Below, piece by piece: positions 10,393 through 57,253 of a DNA stretch of 64,000 bases. Every line of letters starts with the position of its first letter. The first letter of the stretch is position 1. The translations under genes and the position numbers were made by a program. The stretch is taken from the NCBI GenBank assembly GCA_030622545.1, contig JAUXGA010000004.1, positions 62,001 to 126,000 of the forward strand. The letters run 5' to 3'. The notes under the pieces were generated by a model that worked only from the letters and a program-made list of their open reading frames with translations, had not been told where the DNA came from and did not search any database. Source of the stretch: a bacterium. Its GTDB lineage: Bacteria > Electryoneota > RPQS01 > DYHQ01.

Positions 10393-12042
10393 TTACTTCA
10401 TGAGCACCATTTTTTGCGCGGCCGTGAAGTCATTGGCCTGCATACGATAGATATAGATGCCCGACGGAAGAGCCGTGCCATCAAAGGTTACCGAATACAC
10501 ACCGACAGTTTGAGGTTCACTGACGAGCGTCGCTACTTCGCGTCCGGTGATGTCGTAAACCTGAATCGTGACCATTCCGGCTTCCTTCAGCGTATAGTTG
10601 AAGGTCGTCGTCGGGTTGAATGGATTCGGGTAGTTCTGAGACAAGCTGTAATCGGATACCGCTTCCGGTCCATAAGGCGTTGCACTCACGACCTGCTCGT
10701 AATCATTGCGAGTCCCGTCGATGTCTACACTGGTCAGACGGTAGTGATAGGTCGTTCCGGCAACGAGATTTTCATCCGTGAAGCTGTAGCTGTTGCCTGT
10801 TGGAGTCGTTCCGGCGCCGTCAACATGACCGATATCCATCCACGTTGCTTGATCCTGTGATTGTTCAACAACAAAGTAAGCGTTGTTCTTTTCGCTGGCA
10901 GTCACCCAGTCAAGGCGAACCGCATTGACGAGCGGTGTTGCTTCAAAGGTCGAAAGTTCGACCGGCAAGATTTCATCAATCGTCATGCAGAAACAGCCGT
11001 ACCAGTTGTCAGGATTATCGCGCGGCAAGCAAAGACGAAGAACCCAGTAGGCTGAAGCGTCTAACACGATTTCCCAGGATGGTATGCCTGCGCCCGGTTC
11101 ACAAATCTCATCACATGGAGTGGGTCCCAATTCACAACCCGGTAGGAACACAATGTTCGGAATGATCGGCGGATCATAGGGCGTAATAAGCGGAATATCC
11201 AGATATTCATCACAATAGCAAAGAGTCACACAATAGGATCCGGCGGCTAAAATTTCCGCTGGTCCTGATGGTGTGCAGCAATCCCAGTCATCCCAGATAT
11301 CTATCGGGAGTACTTGCGTCGGTCCGGAATCGTCAATTGTCAAAGGGCGATTGCCAACACCTTCCCAGTTACAATTGGCGCCATCGTGCTTATTGTACTT
11401 GTAGAGCACTGCCGGGTTGACTCCGGCCGGGAAAAAGAAATCAGCTTCAAAAACCAAATCTCCATCGGGATCACTCATCTGACGAGATGGATCGCAGGCA
11501 CCCCAGCCCCAGTAATCACCGGTGAAAAAGACACCACCCGGATACCATGATGGATGTTGACAGGACATATCAACTTGGAAGGTGACCGTAACATCTTGGG
11601 ATGTACCAACCTGAATATGCAGCGTAAATGGGGGATCATTGAAATTCTGATCCTGCGCCCCATCATACCAGGTTTCGTCGGTGCTGTCATACAGCATGCA
11701 ATAGAAATTCTCATCCACGCCTCCTTGAGTCTCAGACGAGGGGATGATAGCCATATATTCGTCATTGTTGTCCACTTCACCGTTATAACTCATACCCACA
11801 GAAACATAGTCCACGTCGGTTGACTTCTTGTAGTAAAGCCAGGCGCCCAGGCCAGCACATCGACCTTCACCGGGTGTACAGCCACCTTTATAAATCTGTA
11901 CATATACCTCAATGTTGGCCGTTGGCAGGTAGGTTTGACCATCTGTCGGCCAAATACTTCCTGCCCAATCGATAACAGCGAAGCTGCTGGTAACTCCAAA
12001 AACCAGCAATGCCATCAAACCAATAACAATCTTGTACTTCAT
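10393..12042 (-). CDS. Cysteine-rich secreted protein with T9SS type A sorting domain
   Basis: 549 residues. An N-terminal signal peptide (KIVIGLMALLVFGVTSSFA) is followed by about 330 residues of secreted sequence holding all 17 cysteines, often clustered (DCC, CVTLCYC, CFC). Inside it, near residue 150, VTVTFQVDMS followed by GVFFTGDYWGWG resembles the beta-sandwich of starch-binding/CBM20-like domains. Next comes a fibronectin III-like domain (LPVELSTFEA, YFVVEQSQD), and the last 85 residues are a T9SS sorting domain (QNYPNPFNPTT, VYDITGREVATL, LPSGIYIYRMQA). The protein should cross the outer membrane by type IX secretion and be released or surface-attached. GGAGG precedes the ATG and a consensus promoter lies about 95 bp upstream. 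The gene stands alone between a terminator and its promoter. Binding target unknown. Confidence 0.9.
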   Translation of the reverse strand: MKYKIVIGLMALLVFGVTSSFAVIDWAGSIWPTDGQTYLPTANIEVYVQIYKGGCTPGEGRCAGLGAWLYYKKSTDVDYVSVGMSYNGEVDNNDEYMAIIPSSETQGGVDENFYCMLYDSTDETWYDGAQDQNFNDPPFTLHIQVGTSQDVTVTFQVDMSCQHPSWYPGGVFFTGDYWGWGACDPSRQMSDPDGDLVFEADFFFPAGVNPAVLYKYNKHDGANCNWEGVGNRPLTIDDSGPTQVLPIDIWDDWDCCTPSGPAEILAAGSYCVTLCYCDEYLDIPLITPYDPPIIPNIVFLPGCELGPTPCDEICEPGAGIPSWEIVLDASAYWVLRLCLPRDNPDNWYGCFCMTIDEILPVELSTFEATPLVNAVRLDWVTASEKNNAYFVVEQSQDQATWMDIGHVDGAGTTPTGNSYSFTDENLVAGTTYHYRLTSVDIDGTRNDYEQVVSATPYGPEAVSDYSLSQNYPNPFNPTTTFNYTLKEAGMVTIQVYDITGREVATLVSEPQTVGVYSVTFDGTALPSGIYIYRMQANDFTAAQKMVLMK

Positions 12043-29161: not shown

Positions 29162-30121
29162 ATGAAATGGGTAGGGATTATACTGCTGAGCATTTGGTGG
29201 CTGGGCTGCGCAATTGAAGAATCATCTGAACTTCAAACCGGCTCTATCGAAGTCCGTCTGTTTGATTCCACCCAAACAGAGATTCTCGACGCGCGCATTA
29301 CACTTGACGATGTTGAGATGGGGCAGCGAACACCTGCGGTAATCAGCAGAGTCTCGACCGGGCTGCGAAATCTTTCTGTTTGGAAATCGCTTTTTCTTCC
29401 TGTAGATACAGTAGTGGAAGTGCTCCAATTTGATACCGTACAGGTGTCGCTTTTCACAAGTCCGGCGGATACGGGCGCGATTGAACTTCTCGGAGTGCCG
29501 GATGGTGTGACGCTTCTGCTCAATGGAGAAGCCTATGGCCAAACGCCACCGCAAATCTTTCCAGAAATTGGAGTCGGAACTTATCGCATATCCGCTTATA
29601 TGGTGGAAGCAGCAACGGACTTGCCCGCTCTCTGGCGAGAGGAAGTTGTCGGAGCGGACACCTTATCCATCACCGTGAGTTTTACACCTTGGGCACCCGG
29701 AAATCAAGTTGACAATCTGGCTAATTCCTTTGCACTTCCCAGTGATTGGAATCGAGATTTCGCACTTCAAGATTGGCGCGGTCATGTTGTTCTTGTCAAT
29801 TTCTGGTTCATCGCTTGTGTGCCCTGTGCTCTCGAGTTTCCTTATCTACAGCAGGTTTATGAAGAATCCGGCGGTGACAATGGTTTTCAGATTATTGCGG
29901 TGAATTCATGGGATAGATTGGAGTTTATTCAGGACTTTCGCATTCAGAGCAATTTGACATTCCCGCTATTGCTGGATAATCACACTGTCGGCCAAGCGTA
30001 CGACGTTGCCGTTTACCCAACCAATTTCTTAGTGGATAAACGAGGCGTGATTCGTTATCGTCTCGGACAAGTGACGTATGATGAACTGCGAGCTTTGGTA
30101 GATCAACTATTGGCGGAATAA
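29162..30121 (+). CDS. Lipoprotein with PEGA-like and thioredoxin (TlpA) domains
   Basis: 319 residues. The N-terminus ends in a lipobox with Cys16 (LSIWWLGC), so it should be lipid-anchored. Residues about 25-175 hold two beta-rich PEGA-like segments (TGSIEVRLFD; GAIELLGVPDGVTLLLNG...GTYRISAY). Residues about 190-319 are a TlpA/ResA thioredoxin fold with the redox pair Cys219-Val-Pro-Cys222 in NFWFIACVPCALEFP and the cis-proline in AVYPTNFLVD. The domain mix suggests a surface or periplasmic thiol-disulfide protein that also binds an envelope partner. It is the first of four envelope genes packed to 33 kb: T9SS cargo, a second TlpA and an outer-membrane barrel. Confidence 0.85.
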   Translation: MKWVGIILLSIWWLGCAIEESSELQTGSIEVRLFDSTQTEILDARITLDDVEMGQRTPAVISRVSTGLRNLSVWKSLFLPVDTVVEVLQFDTVQVSLFTSPADTGAIELLGVPDGVTLLLNGEAYGQTPPQIFPEIGVGTYRISAYMVEAATDLPALWREEVVGADTLSITVSFTPWAPGNQVDNLANSFALPSDWNRDFALQDWRGHVVLVNFWFIACVPCALEFPYLQQVYEESGGDNGFQIIAVNSWDRLEFIQDFRIQSNLTFPLLLDNHTVGQAYDVAVYPTNFLVDKRGVIRYRLGQVTYDELRALVDQLLAE

Positions 30122-30135
30122 GAAAAGGAAAAAGG

Positions 30136-30882
30136 ATGAGAAACTTTCGACAAACGTTGCGGCTTTTTGCGACACTGCTCGTTCCTTTTATCATCACAGC
30201 AGACGGTTTCGCGCAGACTTTTTCTTTCACATCGGATACAGTGGTGAAATATGGCGAACCGAATCACTTGGCGATTTTTCATGCGGAATTTGAAAGTCTG
30301 ATTGATGACACGCAATGGGTTAAATTTCATGTCGAGCCGATTGATTTTCCTGAAAGCTGGACCATTAGTATCTGCAATGACAGTGGCTGCTATCCTCCGG
30401 GCATTAATGATGTCAATAATCTCTATCAACCCTACGCGAGAGATACGCTGGTCTCGTTCGATGTTTTTATGACAGATGTCGGAGATTCCGGACATTTTGC
30501 CGCCACGCTGACCGCCGCTCGCGATCCGGAACATCCGCAGACAATTCAGTTCACACTCATCAACGATGAAGTCGGCGGTGTGGTAAAATGGTACGCCGTA
30601 CCTTCAGGTCTTGACCTCGTCTCTTACCCGAATCCTTTTAACAGCGAGACAACATTGGAATTCTCTCTTTCGAACAGAGAAGCAGTGGAGTTGACGATTT
30701 ATGATTTACTCGGTCGGGAAGTTGCAAGTCTCCTGAATCATCAATGGTTGAATGCGGGTTCTTATCGCCTCCCGTGGGCTGCGACGAACTCGAATGGAGT
30801 TTCTTTACCGACAGGTGTCTATTTTGCCAAGCTGAATATGGGAACGGAGTTTAAAACGTATCGATTGTATTTGCTTCGATAG
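30136..30882 (+). CDS. Small secreted protein with T9SS type A sorting domain
   Basis: 248 residues. A signal peptide (LRLFATLLVPFIITADGFA) is followed by a beta-sandwich of about 130 residues (KFHVEPIDFPESWTISICND, FDVFMTDVGDSGHFAATL) and a C-terminal T9SS sorting domain from about residue 160 (SYPNPFNSETTLEFSL, IYDLLGREVASLL, LPTGVYFAKL). It should be exported through the type IX system. Two cysteines (ICNDSGC) could form a disulfide, which fits the thioredoxin-fold neighbours on either side. Spacing to neighbours is 14 bp on each side. The passenger domain resembles domains seen next to TlpA proteins in FCB genomes; its function is unknown. Confidence 0.85.
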   Translation: MRNFRQTLRLFATLLVPFIITADGFAQTFSFTSDTVVKYGEPNHLAIFHAEFESLIDDTQWVKFHVEPIDFPESWTISICNDSGCYPPGINDVNNLYQPYARDTLVSFDVFMTDVGDSGHFAATLTAARDPEHPQTIQFTLINDEVGGVVKWYAVPSGLDLVSYPNPFNSETTLEFSLSNREAVELTIYDLLGREVASLLNHQWLNAGSYRLPWAATNSNGVSLPTGVYFAKLNMGTEFKTYRLYLLR

Positions 30883-30895
30883 GAGAATGTTGTAA

Positions 30896-31411
30896 ATGCA
30901 TCGCAATAGGATGAAGAGGTCTGCAGGAATTATAACCGCAATACTAATTCTCAGTTTTTCCTCCTATGGCATATCCGCCGTTCCGACAGGTTGGACGCTG
31001 AAAGATTTGAATGGGGGACGATACACCTTGTCCAAGAATCTGGGCAATGGGCCGACGATGCTGATTTTCTGGGCAACATGGTGCCGTCCTTGCAAGCAGG
31101 AGATGAAAGAGTACAAATCCATCTTTGAGGATTATCAGGAGAAGGGTGTTCAGATTTTGGCGATTTCGGAAGATAATTCAAAAACACAAAGCAAAGTCAG
31201 ACCTTTCATTCGAAGTGTTGGCTACGAATTTACAGTACTTCTTGATCCGACGCGCGAAGTCTTGAAAAGCTATGGGGGAGTTTCTCTGCCGTACACGGTC
31301 ATCCTCGATTCCACGGGAGAGGTGCAGAAAGTCTATCGGGGGAAAATCAAAAAAATCGACGAATTAAGCGAGCTCCTTGGCAAACTCCTTGAAGAACCTT
31401 CGAGTGAATAA
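30896..31411 (+). CDS. TlpA/ResA-family periplasmic thiol-disulfide oxidoreductase
   Basis: 171 residues. The N-terminus (SAGIITAILILSFSSYGISA) is a signal peptide or anchor. The thioredoxin fold carries FWATWCRPCKQEM with Cys63 and Cys66, a helix-strand segment YQEKGVQILAISED, and the cis-proline in GVSLPYTVILD. TlpA/ResA proteins reduce or shuffle disulfides outside the inner membrane, for example in cytochrome c assembly. No ccm/ccs genes are nearby. Here the partners are more likely the two cargo proteins and the outer-membrane protein encoded next to it. Confidence 0.9.
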   Translation: MHRNRMKRSAGIITAILILSFSSYGISAVPTGWTLKDLNGGRYTLSKNLGNGPTMLIFWATWCRPCKQEMKEYKSIFEDYQEKGVQILAISEDNSKTQSKVRPFIRSVGYEFTVLLDPTREVLKSYGGVSLPYTVILDSTGEVQKVYRGKIKKIDELSELLGKLLEEPSSE

Positions 31412-32918
31412 ACTCATTCTATTAACTCTTTTCTGTTTGATTGCGCTGACTTCTCCTTTGTTCGTATGGGCGCAGGGAATCACAATTAACGGATCAAACC
31501 TGCTGCGTTTCGATGAAGGTCGCGAAGTCGACCCTCAGAAGTTTGCCGATTTTCCAGACAACAGAACAGCGCGAAGCTTCTTCGAAAATCAGTTGCGCTT
31601 GAATATTGCCTACAATAATCTGCGAATGGGGGGACGTATACTTCATTACAGACCGTCGGATGTTGACAGGCGTTTCTTTGGGGTTGAAAACGAAACGGAT
31701 TTGGACAAACGGTTTGTCGAAGCGCAGATTTATCCTCTTGCTATTCGCGTCGGACATTTCGCGGAAGTTTTTGGCTATGGCTTGGCGCTGAGTCTTTTCG
31801 AAGACCGAGATATTCTTTTTGACAGTGAACTGGATGGAGTACGAATCGCTTTTGAACAGGGACCCGTATCGGTGATTGCTCTCAAAGGTCGTTCACGTGC
31901 GCGTCCGGGATTTCTTGTTTCCGAAGAAGGAGTGACCGCTGTTCACGGTGAAGTCTCGCTTACATCCGGATGGTCGCTGAATTCAAGTTTCGTTCATCTC
32001 GATTCGACGGACTATCCGGAAACGAACCTTCCAGCCGTGGGTGCTCTGGCGACAATTGGAGCAACTCAACTATCCGGAGAGTTCGCTTGGAAGGAAACCG
32101 ACTTGGGTTCGAAACATGTTTCCGGACATGCCGCCTATTTTGATATCACGACGAGTTATCGTCAATTCACTCTGCTTTTCAATTATAAAGACTACCGCTA
32201 TCGCGGCTGGACTCCTTTTCAAAATCCGCCGCTGGTCAGCCGTGAAATCGGTCCGCGTCTTCTACAGTTTCGTGAACCTCACGTCTTCTATCCGGAAGAC
32301 GATGTAGGATTTCAGTTTGAACTCAGCGGCTATTTTGGAGATAATTTGTATCTCCTGACTCACTTCAACCACTCGAGTCAACATGCTGAAGGTTTGGAAG
32401 GAATCGCTCGTCCGACATTCCAAGAGCATGACTGGCCTTATTGGGAATTTTTTGCATCTGTGGAAAATGCGTGGGCGTCCGGTCACATACTTGAAGCAGA
32501 GGCGGGATTCAGCGAAGAAGCGCAACTACAATTCTGGTTCAAGAAATACTGGCTGACATCAGAAGTTATAGCCCCCATCGGAGAGCAGCAGGAGATTCAT
32601 CTTGGCGGCGAGATTCTCTTGGTGAAGGATCACCGCAACGATGATGAATTTTTCGATAAACTCGTCTTTGTCGGTTGGAGCAATGGCGGAGAGCTTTCTG
32701 CGGAAGTGCAAATTCAGTGGACAGACGACAAAAAACTGCGCAAGAAAGAAGGAGATTTTTGGCCATCGGCTGAAGTTGGCTACTCCTTCGGTGAAGGTCG
32801 TCATCGCGCCATCGTTTTCGGGGGACGTGAACGAGGTGGTCTACGTTGTTCCAATGGATTCTGCCGCCGCGTTCAGCCCTTTGAAGGCTTCCGCCTTATT
32901 CTTGAAAGTTCGCTATGA
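31404..32918 (+). CDS. Outer-membrane beta-barrel protein (DUF6029-like)
   Basis: About 504 residues from GTG 31404. That start puts the hydrophobic signal NKLILLTLFCLIALTSPLFVWAQ at the very N-terminus. It overlaps the tlpA stop by 8 bp; upstream TTGs at 31377 and 31389 are alternatives. The mature protein is rich in alternating aromatic and polar strands (SFFENQLRLNIAYNNLRMGGRILHY, VGHFAEVFGYGLALSLFEDR, GFQFELSGYFGDNLYLLTHF) typical of a barrel, and it ends in a strand with Phe and Leu. The motif GVRIAFEQGPVSVIAL resembles the DUF6029 group from my memory. Two cysteines are near the C-terminus (RCSNGFC). Its end overlaps selA (ATGA). Confidence 0.72.
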   Translation: MNKLILLTLFCLIALTSPLFVWAQGITINGSNLLRFDEGREVDPQKFADFPDNRTARSFFENQLRLNIAYNNLRMGGRILHYRPSDVDRRFFGVENETDLDKRFVEAQIYPLAIRVGHFAEVFGYGLALSLFEDRDILFDSELDGVRIAFEQGPVSVIALKGRSRARPGFLVSEEGVTAVHGEVSLTSGWSLNSSFVHLDSTDYPETNLPAVGALATIGATQLSGEFAWKETDLGSKHVSGHAAYFDITTSYRQFTLLFNYKDYRYRGWTPFQNPPLVSREIGPRLLQFREPHVFYPEDDVGFQFELSGYFGDNLYLLTHFNHSSQHAEGLEGIARPTFQEHDWPYWEFFASVENAWASGHILEAEAGFSEEAQLQFWFKKYWLTSEVIAPIGEQQEIHLGGEILLVKDHRNDDEFFDKLVFVGWSNGGELSAEVQIQWTDDKKLRKKEGDFWPSAEVGYSFGEGRHRAIVFGGRERGGLRCSNGFCRRVQPFEGFRLILESSL

Positions 32919-34315
32919 GCGACGAACAGAATCGCAAGGATCCGCGACGTCAGTTGCCTTCAGTTGATACGGTACTGCAACAAGATTGCCTGTCTCCATT
33001 CCACAAAAATGTCGCGCCGGATTTTATTACACAAGCGGTACGAATTGTTTTAGAACGGGAAAGGGAGCGCGCAACCGATTCGCGAGCACTTGCGAAGGCT
33101 GACAAGATTGCTGAGATGGCGGCGGCAGAACTTCGCTTGTGGATGCAAAGCAAATTGCAGCCGATGATAAATGGAACCGGCGTTATTCTCCATACAGGGC
33201 TCGGGCGAGCTCCGATGCCGAAAGAAGCACAGGAAGCCGTTGCGCAAGTTGCCCAAGGTTATTGTAGTCTTGAAATCAATCTGAAAAGTGGTCGCAGAGG
33301 AGAACGACAGGATCTTCTCCTTGATGATTTCGAGCGGCTGTTGGGCGCTGAAGCGGCTCTGGTTGTCAACAATAACGCCGCGGGAGTTTTTCTGGTTCTA
33401 AGCGCACTGGCTTCGCGGAAAGAAGTCATCGTTTCACGAGGACAGCTCATTGAGATAGGGGGGAGTTTTCGACTTCCGGAAATCATGAAGCGTTCCGGTG
33501 CTAAACTCGTTGAAGTCGGCACCACCAACAAAACTCGACTGGCGGATTTCGCGGAAGCTATTACTCCGAAGACAGCACTGATTCTGCGAGCGTACCCTTC
33601 TAATTTTAAGATCGAAGGTTTTTCCGAGAGCGTCCCACTTACGGATTTGGTAGCGTTGGGAAAAGAGCACGGAATTCCTGTTGTTGATGATTTGGGAGGA
33701 GGACTGCTTTGGTCTTGGCAGAAGTGGGATCTTCCCGAGGAACCGACGGTTTCCGAAAGCCTCGAAGTGGGCGTGGATCTCGTCCTCTTTTCGGGTGATA
33801 AGGTTCTGGGCGGCCCTCAGGCCGGAATCATACTCGGAAAACGGGAGTTGATTGCAAAATTAAGACGCCATCCGCTGCTGCGTGTGTTGCGTCCGGACAA
33901 GCTTCAACTCGCCGCTCTTTCGGCGACACTGAAACTCTTTTTTGATCGTGACAGACTCCCGGAACGTTTGCCCACTTTCGAACGTTTAACGGAGCTGACA
34001 GAAAGCGTGCAACAGCGAGTTTCGGATTTCAAACATCGAATCGAAAATTGGACGGATTGGGCGGATCTGGAAGCCGTGAAAAGTTTCGCGCAGACCGGTT
34101 CGGGGACGTTGCCCGCAGAAAAACTGCCCAGCGCGGCGCTGGCTTTCTGCCCCCGCGCTTATCGACCGCACCAATGGGCACGACGTTTGCGCTTAGGAAC
34201 CCCTGCTGTCCTCGGATTTCTGAAGGATGACCGATTTCTTATTGATTTCCGAACGATTTTCCCCAGACAGACGGAATCACTTGGTAATGCTGTGAAAGCT
34301 GCTTTGAAAAAATAA
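32915..34315 (+). CDS. selA: L-seryl-tRNA(Sec) selenium transferase
   Basis: 466 residues. The N-terminal RQLPSVDTVL tRNA-binding segment, INGTGVILHTGLGRAP, VVNNNAAGVFLVLSALA, DDLGGG and FSGDKVLGGPQAG with PLP Lys296 identify SelA. It is a large ring-shaped PLP enzyme that converts Ser-tRNA(Sec) to Sec-tRNA(Sec) using selenophosphate. ATG 32915 overlaps the barrel gene's stop (ATGA). SelB (38612) and the tRNA-Sec gene (57155) are in the same window; selD is not. Together they show that the organism decodes UGA as selenocysteine. Confidence 0.97.
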   Translation: MSDEQNRKDPRRQLPSVDTVLQQDCLSPFHKNVAPDFITQAVRIVLERERERATDSRALAKADKIAEMAAAELRLWMQSKLQPMINGTGVILHTGLGRAPMPKEAQEAVAQVAQGYCSLEINLKSGRRGERQDLLLDDFERLLGAEAALVVNNNAAGVFLVLSALASRKEVIVSRGQLIEIGGSFRLPEIMKRSGAKLVEVGTTNKTRLADFAEAITPKTALILRAYPSNFKIEGFSESVPLTDLVALGKEHGIPVVDDLGGGLLWSWQKWDLPEEPTVSESLEVGVDLVLFSGDKVLGGPQAGIILGKRELIAKLRRHPLLRVLRPDKLQLAALSATLKLFFDRDRLPERLPTFERLTELTESVQQRVSDFKHRIENWTDWADLEAVKSFAQTGSGTLPAEKLPSAALAFCPRAYRPHQWARRLRLGTPAVLGFLKDDRFLIDFRTIFPRQTESLGNAVKAALKK

Positions 34316-36443: not shown

Positions 36444-37835
36444 ATGGCTGGGAAAATGAAATCTTTCGGTCCAGGTCCTCGTCCGTATCGAGCCGTTGCC
36501 GATACGATTATGCGGCTATTGCGGATTTTTCTTCCGATTGCGATTATTGGAATTGCATTCTATGTTCTGATTGATCGTACTCAAACCGGGACGGGAAATC
36601 TCCAGATCTTAAGCAATGTGAAGGGTGCCGAGATTCTAATCGACGGAATTCAGAGCGGCGCAAAAACCGATACAACACTATCAGCAATCATTGCGGGACG
36701 AAAGTTAATCACCATTCAAAAGGAAGGTTACAAAGCGGAGCCGGAAGTTGTTCTTGTCAATGTGAAACCGGACTCATCCGTCTTTGTGAGATTCACGCTC
36801 TTTTTGATTGATACCATACCTGCTCCTGAGGAAGACACCCTTGAAATTCCAGAAGTGGAGAGGCTCGCATCCATAGAACAAAATCTTCCGGAAGAGTCTC
36901 TCCCGCGAACGGCATCGCAAAGCTATCTGGAAGAAGCTCAACAACTCATAGCTGCCGAGGAGGAAGAAGCGCTCGCAGCAGATGAAACAGTTGTACGAAC
37001 TCCTGAGCCGCAAACTCCTCCCACCAGCGAAGACATCAAGGGAACTTCTGTTCGGGTAACCTCAAATCCCGATGATGCTGAAATTATTATCAATGACGAT
37101 TCGACCGGTTATCGTACGAACCGCACATTGCAGGATCTGTCTCGTGGAACATATTACTTCAAAATCAGCAAAAAAGGATATGTTGCAAAACCAGAAGTTG
37201 TTCGCATTGACTTGACGAGAGATTTTCAAAGTGAAATCGTCGCTTTTGAGCTCTTTGTAGATGAGTCACTGCCTCCTCCAAAATTGACCGTCATCACAGA
37301 ACCCATCGCGGCGAATATTCTGGTGAACGGCAAGCCCGTCGGAAAAGGGCGGATCGTCATGGATGTAAATCTCGGAAAATCCGTTATTGAATTCTCGAGC
37401 GTCGAAGGCTATCTGACACCCTTGGCACAAACGGCTGTGTTTTCACCGGAGACAACAGCAATAGCCGTTGTCGGAACTTATAAACGCATCGAGGGAAAAG
37501 CTCAACTGGCTGTACTACCGCGTTCGAAAACCGTTCCCGGAGACGAGCTGCGAATCCTCGTGGATAATGACTTGATTGTCGAGAATCCCGGTGAGGAATT
37601 CCAAGGTATCCTGATGCATAAAATGCTTTCGGGAAAACGTCTGCTGCGAGTTGAATTTCAAGACCTAACAAAGGATGTTCACGTAGAATTAACTGATGAT
37701 AATATGACTCTTGTTACTTTCACCGTTGAAAGTTTTCTCAGTACGCAGAGATTGCGTCTGCGTGTGGAAGACACAATCACACCGAAAGCATGGGAAAAAC
37801 GATCCCGACGCCTCACGATTATCGAAAAATATTAG
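36444..37835 (+). CDS. Membrane-anchored PEGA-repeat protein
   Basis: 463 residues. One transmembrane helix near the N-terminus (LLRIFLPIAIIGIAFYVLI, about residues 24-42) anchors an extracytoplasmic region with at least three PEGA domains: about 50-115 (GNLQILSNVKGAEILIDG), 195-265 (TSVRVTSNPDDAEIIIND) and 280-345 (KLTVITEPIAANILVNG). An acidic Glu-rich linker of about 60 residues separates the first two. PEGA domains bind envelope or cell-surface partners. It follows slipin by 21 bp and is closed by a terminator at 37873. Its partner may be the NfeD-slipin pair or the other PEGA protein at 29162; that is inference. Confidence 0.82.
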   Translation: MAGKMKSFGPGPRPYRAVADTIMRLLRIFLPIAIIGIAFYVLIDRTQTGTGNLQILSNVKGAEILIDGIQSGAKTDTTLSAIIAGRKLITIQKEGYKAEPEVVLVNVKPDSSVFVRFTLFLIDTIPAPEEDTLEIPEVERLASIEQNLPEESLPRTASQSYLEEAQQLIAAEEEEALAADETVVRTPEPQTPPTSEDIKGTSVRVTSNPDDAEIIINDDSTGYRTNRTLQDLSRGTYYFKISKKGYVAKPEVVRIDLTRDFQSEIVAFELFVDESLPPPKLTVITEPIAANILVNGKPVGKGRIVMDVNLGKSVIEFSSVEGYLTPLAQTAVFSPETTAIAVVGTYKRIEGKAQLAVLPRSKTVPGDELRILVDNDLIVENPGEEFQGILMHKMLSGKRLLRVEFQDLTKDVHVELTDDNMTLVTFTVESFLSTQRLRLRVEDTITPKAWEKRSRRLTIIEKY

Positions 37836-37917: not shown

Positions 37918-38628
37918 ATGAAAGAACGGCTGCAAAAAATTCTGGCACACTGGGGCGTTGCGTCAAGACGCGCCTGCGAGGAATTCATGCGAGCCGGGCG
38001 CGTGACGGTCAATGGTGTTCCGGCAACGCAACCGGGCTTCAATGCCGACCCTGAAACAGATGACATTCGCTTCGATGGAAAACCTCTCCGACAGAAACCT
38101 CCCGATCGAATCGTGATTGCACTGAATAAACCTGCTGGCTATCTTTCTACTTGTAAATCAGCCAAAACGAAATCGCCAACCGTCCTTGACCTTGTCCCCG
38201 ATGGAACTCGTCTTTTTCCCGTCGGGCGACTCGACCGCGAAAGCTCAGGGTTACTGCTCTTGACAAACGACGGTGAATTGACGAATAAAATATTGCATCC
38301 CCGATTCGGTTTCGATAAAGAATATATCGTGCATGTTAGAGAACCTCTGACGAAAGAGCAAATGCACAGACTTCGCAAAGGAGTTCGATTGGAGGAACGG
38401 TTAGCCAAACCGATTTCTTTGCGTTCACAGGGTCACTCATCATACAAAATCGTCATGGGAGAAGGAAGGAAGCGCGAAATCCGACGAATGCTGAAGCTCA
38501 TCGGCTCCGAAGTCATCCAATTGCACAGAGTACGCATCGGTCCTCTGAAATTGGGAAATATTCCCTTGGGGAAATGGCGCAAATTATCTAAAGAAGAAAT
38601 CAAAAAGCTGAATGACTACTCAAAATAG
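37918..38628 (+). CDS. rluB: RluB/RsuA-family 23S/16S rRNA pseudouridine synthase
   Basis: 236 residues. An S4 RNA-binding domain (RLQKILAHWGVASRRACEEFMRAGRVTVNG) begins the protein; the catalytic motif GRLDRESSGLLLLTNDG supplies the active aspartate near residue 106, and GEGRKREIRRMLKLIG matches the family C-terminus. It makes pseudouridine in rRNA; RluB (23S U2605) is the best guess, RsuA or RluE are alternatives. It is the first gene after a terminator, so it probably heads the operon running to folD. It overlaps selB by 17 bp. Confidence 0.9.
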   Translation: MKERLQKILAHWGVASRRACEEFMRAGRVTVNGVPATQPGFNADPETDDIRFDGKPLRQKPPDRIVIALNKPAGYLSTCKSAKTKSPTVLDLVPDGTRLFPVGRLDRESSGLLLLTNDGELTNKILHPRFGFDKEYIVHVREPLTKEQMHRLRKGVRLEERLAKPISLRSQGHSSYKIVMGEGRKREIRRMLKLIGSEVIQLHRVRIGPLKLGNIPLGKWRKLSKEEIKKLNDYSK

Positions 38629-40540
38629 TTCGCCGGAGAATACTGCGGGACATGTCATTGTCGGCACGGCAGGACACATCGACCATGGGAAATCCCTTCT
38701 GGTTAAAGTTCTAACTGGAACAGATCCTGACCGCTTACCGGAAGAACAAGAACGACACATCACCATCGATATTGGCTTTGCGTTTCTGGATGATATTGCG
38801 GCAATCATTGATGTTCCCGGACATGAACGATTCATACGGAATATGGTCGCGGGTGCGGCAACAATCGATTACGCCATTCTGGTCATTGCAGCCGACGACG
38901 GCGTCATGCCGCAGACTCAGGAACATCTCGATATTCTCCGAATTCTCGATATCAAGCAAGGCGTTGTGGTCATTACAAAAGCAGCTTTAGTAGAAGATGA
39001 ATGGCTCGAATTAGTACGTGACCAAATCGAGGAATTCGTCAAAGCGACTTTTCTCCAGAATGCTCCGATTTTCATTGTAGATTCCATAAGCGGTCTTGGA
39101 ATTTCAGAGTTGCGAGATTTCCTGTGCAAAGAACTCACGACTCTGCAGCAACAAGACGACCGAGGATTCTTCCGACTACCGATTGACCGCGTTTTTCAGA
39201 TGAAAGGGCACGGCACAGTCGTAACCGGTACGATTACATCCGGAAATATTTCTGTTGATGACCGACTGGAATTGCTTCCTCAGGGAAAGGAAGTGCGTGT
39301 GCGCGGCTTGCAGACTCATGGGACTTCTCAAACTACTCTCAGCACAGGCCAGAGAGCCGCTATCAACCTTGGTGGAGTCGATAAGCAATCCCTATCGCGC
39401 GGAAATGTTTTGGCGACTCCCGGCCATATGGTATCCTCCACTCGATGGCGAGCAAAGGTGAATTTGCTGAATAATATTCCACCGCTGAAAAACCGACAGC
39501 GAGTGCGTGTTCATATCGGTACTTTGGAGGTCATCGCGCGGGTTGTTCCCAGAGTGCCTGAGCCCTATCTTGTGGATTTTTATCTTGAAGCGCCCGCCGT
39601 AGTCTCACGGCTTGAGCCTTTTGTTCTTCGCAGTTATTCTCCAATGATCACGATAGGGGGTGGGGTGGTTATCGAAATCAATCCTCAACCAATACCCAAG
39701 AAGAAGCGCACATTGGATTTGGAGATATCCACGACGCTAAGCCAACATCAAGGAGGAGAATTTTTATACGCCTATCTTGACAAGCGTACACTTTTCGGAG
39801 CAACATTAGCAGATTTAGTTAAGGTCATGGGTTTTGGTGCGAAGAAGATTACCAATTGGCTTGACGAATTGGAACGTGAAAACAAAATCGTGGTTTTCGG
39901 AGACCGATTTCTCTCTTTGTCATCAAAGCAAAGGCATTGCGAACAAATAGAAAAAGCACTTAGAACATTCCATTCTCGAAATTCGGAGCTTCCCGGCATG
40001 GAACGTGCCGAACTCCGACAAGCTGCGCTTTCCGGAATTCCGGACAATCTTTTTTCTCAACTTATCAAGGTTCTTCAGAGCGAAAGAGTCATCAACGTTG
40101 AAGCCTCCGTTATAAGCCTTCCAGAGCATTCCGCTGTTCTCTCGAAAGCTCATGAGACTCTGGCAGAGAAAATCCTAACGATAATAAAAAGCGCGGGATT
40201 TTGCCCGCCGTCCGTCAACGAAATGGAAAAGGTTTTAGAAACACCGAAAGTAGAGATTACAAAAGTTTTGACGTTGCTTTCCAAACAGAAGCGACTGGTG
40301 CGTTTGGAGCCTGAACTCTTCTTCTCTCCAGCTGTGTTTGACGAAGCGATTCAAAAACTGATAAAGGAAATCACAGCCACAGAGGGTGTCACCGTCGGAA
40401 ATGTGGCAACTCTACTCGACTCGACACGCAAATATATTGTCCCTTTCTTAGAGTATATGGATAAACTGGGTGTCACCCGACGCGATGGAGATAAACGATT
40501 TGCAGGATCTCGACAGGAAGAAGACGGCAATGTCGATTAG
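38612..40540 (+). CDS. selB: Selenocysteine-specific elongation factor SelB
   Basis: 642 residues. An EF-Tu-like GTPase is followed by four winged-helix domains. G1 is GTAGHIDHGKS (18-28) and G3 DVPGHERFIRNMV (about 66-78). G4 reads T-K-A-A (122-125), where the family normally has T-K-A-D; a single-base change from GAT would give the alanine at 125. The second and third barrels carry GHGTVVTGTI and GQRAAINLGG. The C-terminal half (LSKAHETLAEKILTIIK, VEITKVLTLLSKQKRLVRLEP) forms the winged helices that bind the SECIS hairpin. SelB delivers Sec-tRNA to UGA codons. It is embedded between rluB and an addA-type helicase, overlapping both. Confidence 0.95.
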   Translation: MTTQNSSPENTAGHVIVGTAGHIDHGKSLLVKVLTGTDPDRLPEEQERHITIDIGFAFLDDIAAIIDVPGHERFIRNMVAGAATIDYAILVIAADDGVMPQTQEHLDILRILDIKQGVVVITKAALVEDEWLELVRDQIEEFVKATFLQNAPIFIVDSISGLGISELRDFLCKELTTLQQQDDRGFFRLPIDRVFQMKGHGTVVTGTITSGNISVDDRLELLPQGKEVRVRGLQTHGTSQTTLSTGQRAAINLGGVDKQSLSRGNVLATPGHMVSSTRWRAKVNLLNNIPPLKNRQRVRVHIGTLEVIARVVPRVPEPYLVDFYLEAPAVVSRLEPFVLRSYSPMITIGGGVVIEINPQPIPKKKRTLDLEISTTLSQHQGGEFLYAYLDKRTLFGATLADLVKVMGFGAKKITNWLDELERENKIVVFGDRFLSLSSKQRHCEQIEKALRTFHSRNSELPGMERAELRQAALSGIPDNLFSQLIKVLQSERVINVEASVISLPEHSAVLSKAHETLAEKILTIIKSAGFCPPSVNEMEKVLETPKVEITKVLTLLSKQKRLVRLEPELFFSPAVFDEAIQKLIKEITATEGVTVGNVATLLDSTRKYIVPFLEYMDKLGVTRRDGDKRFAGSRQEEDGNVD

Positions 40541-57154: not shown

Positions 57155-57253
57155 GGGAGCGGATGGGGACCTGGTGGCCCCCGCGGTCTTCAAAACCGTT
57201 TGCGGTCGGATGACCTCCGGCTGGCTGGGTTCGATTCCCAGACGTTCCCGCCA
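57155..57253 (+). tRNA. selC: tRNA-Sec (anticodon TCA)
   Basis: A 99-base gene. Acceptor strands are GGGAGCGG (57155-57162) and ACGTTCCC (57242-57249), giving seven pairs (one G-U) and a closing G-A. The anticodon stem GCGGT/ACCGT encloses CTTCAAA with TCA at 57190-57192. A long variable arm (57200-57224) and a five-pair T arm CTGGG-TTCGATT-CCCAG follow. The discriminator is G and CCA is encoded at 57251-57253. Eight-plus-five acceptor/T geometry, long variable arm and UGA-reading anticodon are the hallmarks of selenocysteine tRNA, matching selA and selB here. Confidence 0.95.

Follow-up and report, generated by a model that had tools for sequence, protein, structure and literature searches.

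TlpA thiol oxidoreductases paired with DUF6029 outer-membrane barrels: a conserved gene module of Electryoneota and Bacteroidota

PorA of Porphyromonas gingivalis is located at the cell surface, where it associates with PorV-Sov, and it acts upstream of PorXY-SigP (PMC7712824, PMC8754138). In the first of these reports, PorA was still surface-located in mutants without the translocation machinery of the type IX secretion system (T9SS), with its route unknown, and its link to the PorY kinase was likewise left open (PMC7712824). In strain W83, PorA is PG2172, and PG2173 is an Omp28 lipoprotein (PMC9722745). HBP35, a thioredoxin exported by the T9SS, was described as active in vitro (PMC2907840). 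Here we compare with these proteins a four-gene locus in 64,000 nt of bacterial DNA (hereafter the window; GCA_030622545.1, contig JAUXGA010000004.1, positions 62,001-126,000, forward strand) from the lineage Bacteria; Electryoneota; RPQS01; DYHQ01. At its core, the locus pairs a TlpA thiol oxidoreductase with a DUF6029 outer-membrane barrel, and this core is conserved well beyond the window genome, in two phyla. This module is genuine and ancient, and in the literature searched it is undescribed: searches on DUF6029, on T9SS thiol enzymes and on Omp28/thioredoxin gave no account of a TlpA-DUF6029 module among the matches listed.

The TlpA-barrel pair and its gene order

Gene order was read in 75 loci, 11 from the class of the window (window included), 22 from other classes of its phylum and 42 from a second phylum. 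The class sample comprised 13 genomes (G000-G012); the second phylum was that of G039 (Bacteroidetes bacterium SZAS-88), i.e. Bacteroidota, from which an even sample of 148 genomes was taken. L039 was not entered in the table, since its genome, G006, was already represented by L040. DUF6029 was present in 11 of the 13 class genomes, in 32 of 39 genomes of the phylum and in 42 of the 148 sampled Bacteroidota. A TlpA gene lay directly beside the barrel gene or one gene off in 71 of the 75 loci (same strand in 68, divergent in 3), and CxxC was kept in all 71 of these TlpAs. The window genome has only five AhpC-TSA matches in 2.66 Mb, so an adjacency in 71 of 75 loci is more than chance. A tree of TlpA domains was not used as proof, because its 'adj' class also included lipoprotein TlpAs. 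A contig search with the barrel alignment, which depends on two short patterns, found only six loci.

The 11 class neighbourhoods shared the order Nudix, PEGA-TlpA, TlpA, barrel, SelA, NfeD, SPFH and a second PEGA protein; in some of them the contig breaks off early, G006 has its genes on two contigs, and longer overlapping frames hid a few genes. All 11 barrel-bearing class genomes had a second thioredoxin-fold protein together with TlpA and the barrel, and a PEGA-TlpA homologue was found in each, in three cases fused with the cargo domain described below. A sequence-only reading of the window had taken the module for an insertion that separates a Nudix gene from selA. We rejected a fresh insertion at this place, because the order from Nudix through lipoprotein, TlpA and barrel to SelA and NfeD is ordinary across the class. 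The same reading had expected a conserved four-gene order in relatives, and this held in part: the exact order lipoprotein-cargo-TlpA-barrel occurred in 9 of the 75 loci (4/11 in the class, window included; 5/22 in the rest of the phylum; 0/42 in the second phylum), with three fused versions in the class, but the cargo was linked in only 27 of the 75. A lack of linkage in relatives, which would have refuted that reading, was not seen outright: linkage was strong for TlpA and barrel, whereas the cargo gene was unlinked and elsewhere in the genome in G003, G004 and G008.

The remaining positions were more variable; a second thioredoxin-fold protein and a T9SS-tailed protein often accompanied the TlpA-barrel pair. 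The second thioredoxin-fold slot was occupied by PEGA-TlpA, Omp28 or another TlpA. In the cargo slot stood a PorA-like protein or else an Omp28 or TlpA with a T9SS tail, and some classes had a T9SS-tailed subtilase there. In L085 and L087-L090, a subtilase of ~1050 amino acids with a T9SS tail replaced the small cargo upstream of TlpA-barrel; L091 appeared likewise, though it was not scanned. L146 of Bacteroidota showed the order PorA-like protein, PEGA-Omp28 lipoprotein, TlpA, barrel, with Omp28 replacing TlpA in the lipoprotein. In L157-L167, TlpA, barrel and another TlpA were followed by a T9SS-tailed TlpA domain, an export-marked thioredoxin-like protein beside periplasmic relatives. The flanking genes differed between the phyla while the TlpA-barrel pair persisted. 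selA followed the barrel 3' in other classes too (L080, L083, L086, L088-L091), and neither selA nor NfeD was recognised next to the barrel in the second-phylum loci read. L080 and L083 had SelA downstream of the barrel with no TlpA in place, L083 carrying a TPR-TlpA ~3 kb upstream. The barrel of DYHQ01000005.1 (L057), a record labelled Candidatus Puniceispirillum, was 64% identical to that of the window, and this label appears wrong for the lineage.

The four proteins of the window

Open reading frames and domain scans confirmed all four genes on the plus strand at 29162-32918. The TlpA thiol oxidoreductase (30896-31411; 171 amino acids with a signal peptide) matched PF00578 at 86.6 bits (cut-off 26, E 1.6e-24) and has the active site WCRPC, with CRPC encoded at 31082-31093. 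The first gene (29162-30121) encodes a PEGA-TlpA lipoprotein of 319 amino acids, which matched PF08308 PEGA at 30.5 bits (cut-off 20.8, E 3.4e-7) and PF00578 AhpC-TSA at 72.1 bits (cut-off 26, E 5.2e-20); it carries a lipobox LGC (Cys codon at 29207-29209) and a CVPC active site (29816-29827). With scores above the cut-off and a CxxC each, both TlpA domains belong to the AhpC-TSA/TlpA-like superfamily. Between them lies the cargo gene (30136-30882), separated by 14 bp from the lipoprotein gene and by 13 bp from the TlpA gene. The barrel gene (31389-32918) belongs to PF19494, at 70.6 bits against a curated cut-off of 27. No ATG was present near its start, where TTG at 31389 was preferred and TTG at 31377 is the longer alternative; because 31389 is taken as the start, the barrel gene overlaps the TlpA gene. 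Its stop overlaps by 4 bp the start of selA (32915-34315; SelA 446.9 bits), a flanking gene outside the module. Lipobox Cys excepted, all cysteines of the mature proteins fell within four pairs, two CxxC (CVPC, CRPC) and two Cx4C (CNDSGC, CSNGFC). The sequence-only reading had described four packed genes with the last pair overlapping, two thioredoxin-fold proteins with a T9SS cargo and a barrel, and Cys pairs in ICNDSGC and RCSNGFC; all of this agreed with our results, in which the pairs are C80/C85 of the cargo and C487/C492 of the barrel.

The Cys pair of the barrel, C487-x4-C492 (CSNGFC, 32847-32864), lies in its last predicted hairpin. A Cx4C pair was found 18-24 residues from the end at all 75 barrel C-termini (34/34 in one set and 41/41 in another). 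In an alignment of 73 barrels, without the fragments L039, L040 and L138, the median pairwise identity was 21% and the eight invariant columns were these two Cys and six Gly; 54 of the 73 had no further Cys in the mature part. The model of the window barrel showed ~24 strands with a mean predicted local distance difference test score (pLDDT) of 72.6 and placed the Cys pair at the tip of the last hairpin. In an outer-membrane barrel, the tip of the last hairpin is on the extracellular side. The folds closest to the model were the usher pores FimD and PapC (Z 19.9 and 18.4), with OccK porins 2-3 Z behind and a chain of the Mtr complex among the weak Foldseek matches; a PDB profile search found no relative. 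When the window proteins were scanned with Pfam, keeping matches up to E 0.1, the barrel matched only DUF6029 and none of the usher family models. We rejected a chaperone-usher usher and, judging from the model, read the likeness as that of a large barrel, limited to the fold. A paper naming DUF6029 concerns polysaccharide porins and, using HHpred, relates the family to polysaccharide barrels of the Wzi type (PMC9603273). That the barrel is a porin for polysaccharides or solutes, whose thioredoxin-fold neighbours would serve cytochromes or general repair, nevertheless seems very improbable to us: polysaccharide export genes were not recognised in the neighbourhoods read, a weak point as most flanks were labelled only by their similarity to window genes.

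The cargo protein (248 amino acids) consists of a signal peptide, one Ig-like domain and a T9SS sorting domain (Por_Secre_tail, PF18962; residues 164-240, 30625-30879), the last of which scored 33.3 bits in Pfam (cut-off 27) and 36.3 bits with TIGR04183 of NCBIfam (cut-off 23), as is expected of a T9SS cargo at its C-terminus. Its Cys pair, C80-x4-C85 (CNDSGC, 30373-30390), was kept in all 16 homologues aligned, which came from two phyla, and no other position outside the sorting domain was invariant. The check on Cys-pair conservation that the earlier reading had called for was therefore passed by cargo and barrel alike. The cargo gene stands between lipoprotein and TlpA in G000, G001, G005 and G007, and in G002, G009 and G011 PEGA-TlpA carries, as a C-terminal fusion, a cargo domain that keeps the Cys pair and lacks the T9SS tail. 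In the barrel-less genomes G010 and G012 the cargo search gave only tail matches, a search in which a fused form may have been missed.

The N-domain of the cargo was modelled with confidence and its strands were seen. Among Foldseek's 1000 best matches for this model, the N-domain of PorA (6KJK) ranked first by VIA-align (Z 12.1, 116 of 134 residues, 2.8 A), with a lead of ~1 Z over runner-up rows at Z 11.2. It was also the best PDB profile match of the cargo (E 0.0043), with both Cys aligned; further cargo profiles reached it at E 0.058 and, for a Bacteroidota-only profile of PorA-like genes by TlpA-barrel, at 9.1e-5. Single PorA-like proteins of L133 and L137 (Bacteroidota) gave no PorA match. 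The architecture is that of PorA as well, including the length (248 versus ~246 amino acids). We consider the cargo to be probably of PorA type, an assignment for which fold and architecture speak clearly and which does not imply orthology to PorA; in sequence, the profile matches to 6KJK ranged from E 9.1e-5 to 0.063.

In another reading, the PorA-like protein would be exported through the DUF6029 barrel, and TlpA would prevent the Cys pair of the cargo from closing until the crossing is done. The likeness to FimD and PapC and the PorA-like genes beside the barrel in 27 of the 75 loci are consistent with such a pore, as is the surface location of PorA in the translocation mutants (PMC7712824). 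However, a common barrel fold reveals no function, the model is of middling quality and 48 of the 75 loci have no linked PorA-like gene, and we regard this pore as distinctly improbable.

Other features of the window lie apart from the module. selB (38612-40540, by eye and synteny) and tRNA-Sec (57155-57249) are, together with selA, its selenocysteine genes; the active sites of the module use Cys, not Sec. The second PEGA protein (36444-37835, 463 amino acids, two PEGA stretches) follows NfeD and SPFH in most class neighbourhoods. A 549-amino-acid protein on the minus strand (10393-12042) has a T9SS-like tail by eye.

Redox direction and proposed role

DsbD is a known reducing route, whereas DSBA, DsbB and VKOR form the known oxidising route. 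DsbD was detected in 13 of 13 class genomes. Searches for VKOR, DsbB and DSBA found no match in the same 13 genomes and were positive in 3, 6 and 8 of 14 control genomes, respectively. This distribution favours reduction or isomerisation over disulfide making, and disulfide formation through a DsbA/B-type route is weakened as an explanation. The sequence-only reading had suggested that the TlpAs form or reshuffle disulfides; forming now seems less likely, while reshuffling or reduction is the favoured part, still as a suggestion from sequence. The T9SS translocon SprA (TIGR04189) was matched in all 13 class genomes, in 12 of them above the cut-off, and the SprA of the window genome was above it (800.6 bits with its neighbours).

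Our preferred explanation, held tentatively and with slightly less than even confidence, sees in the locus an ancient module for thiol chemistry in the envelope of bacteria with type IX secretion. TlpA would receive electrons from DsbD and, together with the lipoprotein, would hold the Cys pairs of barrel and cargo in the correct redox state by reducing or isomerising wrong disulfides, during folding of the barrel into the outer membrane and during surface display of the PorA-like protein. The barrel pair would, on the model, lie in the last extracellular hairpin and so would need its final state by the time the barrel is inserted. By analogy with PorA in P. gingivalis, the module would probably provide a working barrel and, at the surface, a PorA-like protein that serves the T9SS or senses it.

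Several observations weigh against this explanation or against the identity of the cargo on which part of it leans. Four of the 75 loci had no TlpA in place (L080, L083, L134, L150). The linked PorA-like domain was the least constant part of the module, and one or another slot of the four-gene order was filled otherwise, empty or cut off in 17 of 22 other-class loci and in 42 of 42 second-phylum loci; in G006 (80% complete), which has the barrel, the cargo search gave only tail matches and no PorA-like match. Identity between cargo and PorA was ~10% over the fold alignment, 6KJK was not among Foldseek's first 50 rows for the cargo model, and the mixed cargo profile A4 ranked it second (E 0.063). 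A DsbA of another family could have escaped the searches. Neighbourhood and conserved Cys are no proof of contact between enzyme and substrate, and the Cys pairs could be purely structural and form spontaneously. If so, they would be disulfides stabilising a hairpin in the barrel and in the PorA-like protein, TlpA would be a general periplasmic reductant, and the gene order would be old synteny. Both pairs are indeed at predicted hairpin tips, and in the phylum of the window the barrel also keeps selA and NfeD, genes without an evident relation to it, so synteny alone can persist. However, TlpA keeps to the barrel in the second phylum without recognised selA or NfeD and is divergent in three loci, so the link outlives rearrangement; purely structural disulfides are possible, though we consider them unlikely.

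The thiol module could also reach across the outer membrane. The mature start of the lipoprotein was mostly C-x-I-E in the class, and its acidic residues resemble the export signal of Bacteroidetes (PMC5080379), which makes surface display of the PEGA-TlpA lipoprotein possible by analogy. Signals address thioredoxin folds to both sides, namely signal-peptide TlpA, lipoprotein TlpA or Omp28 and, in the second phylum, T9SS-tailed TlpA or Omp28. The barrel might then couple periplasmic TlpA to surface or secreted thioredoxin folds and move reducing power outward, much as porin-cytochrome conduits carry electrons. The size of the barrel, the Mtr chain among its weak matches and the export of HBP35, active in vitro (PMC2907840), would suit such a relay. 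However, the sole conserved Cys pair of the barrel lies, as predicted, at one of its ends, which leaves electrons no path through the barrel alone; the surface location of the lipoprotein is inferred from its acidic mature start, and the window cargo has no CxxC. We think such a relay rather improbable. Slightly less doubtful, yet still improbable, is that DUF6029 is a dedicated thiol-exchange channel of the outer membrane. Working with TlpA in the periplasm and with thioredoxin-fold or PorA-like proteins outside the cell, the channel would export PorA-type proteins independently of SprA or relay a redox signal controlling the T9SS. If true, this channel would supply the missing link from surface PorA to the inner-membrane PorY kinase. 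Our preferred explanation, in which TlpA acts on the Cys pairs of barrel and cargo, is suggested by sequence, and the module itself presents a thiol system in a lineage without DSBA, DsbB or VKOR matches in its 13 class genomes.

Comparison with known systems

The cargo resembles PorA of P. gingivalis in length (248 versus 246 amino acids), in having a signal peptide, one Ig-like domain and a T9SS sorting domain, and in the fold of 6KJK. It is different from PorA in sequence, and whereas PorA has been placed with PorV-Sov and PorXY-SigP, the cargo is known here from genes and models. The consecutive numbers PG2172 and PG2173 fit the Bacteroidota neighbourhoods of this study, judged by numbering alone. 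No statement on the gene order of PGN_0121-0123 or PG2173/2174 was found in the literature searched, where PG2174 was just an uncharacterised vesicle protein. The module gives PorA-type proteins a conserved genomic setting, next to a barrel and to thiol enzymes. In Bacteroidota, Omp28 lipoproteins fill the second thioredoxin-fold slot by TlpA-DUF6029, and in one case, L146, the Omp28 protein also has a PEGA domain; the window lipoprotein itself was rejected as an Omp28, having no PF11551 match at E up to 0.1. HBP35 is similar to the TlpA-tail proteins of L157-L167, with a thioredoxin-like domain and a T9SS tail, but no such protein is found in the window.

The module shares with TlpA/ResA-type oxidoreductases the AhpC-TSA fold with CxxC, and among solved structures ResA was the best match for PEGA-TlpA. 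The two window TlpAs scored 95.9 and 80 bits with the NCBIfam ResA model, far below its cut-off of 170. It is different from these enzymes in that its constant neighbour is an outer-membrane barrel and that one copy has a PEGA domain and a lipobox. DUF6029 (PF19494), to which the window barrel belongs, is a family without assigned function; it now has an enzyme as its steady neighbour and a Cys pair that does not vary, and its biology thereby becomes testable.

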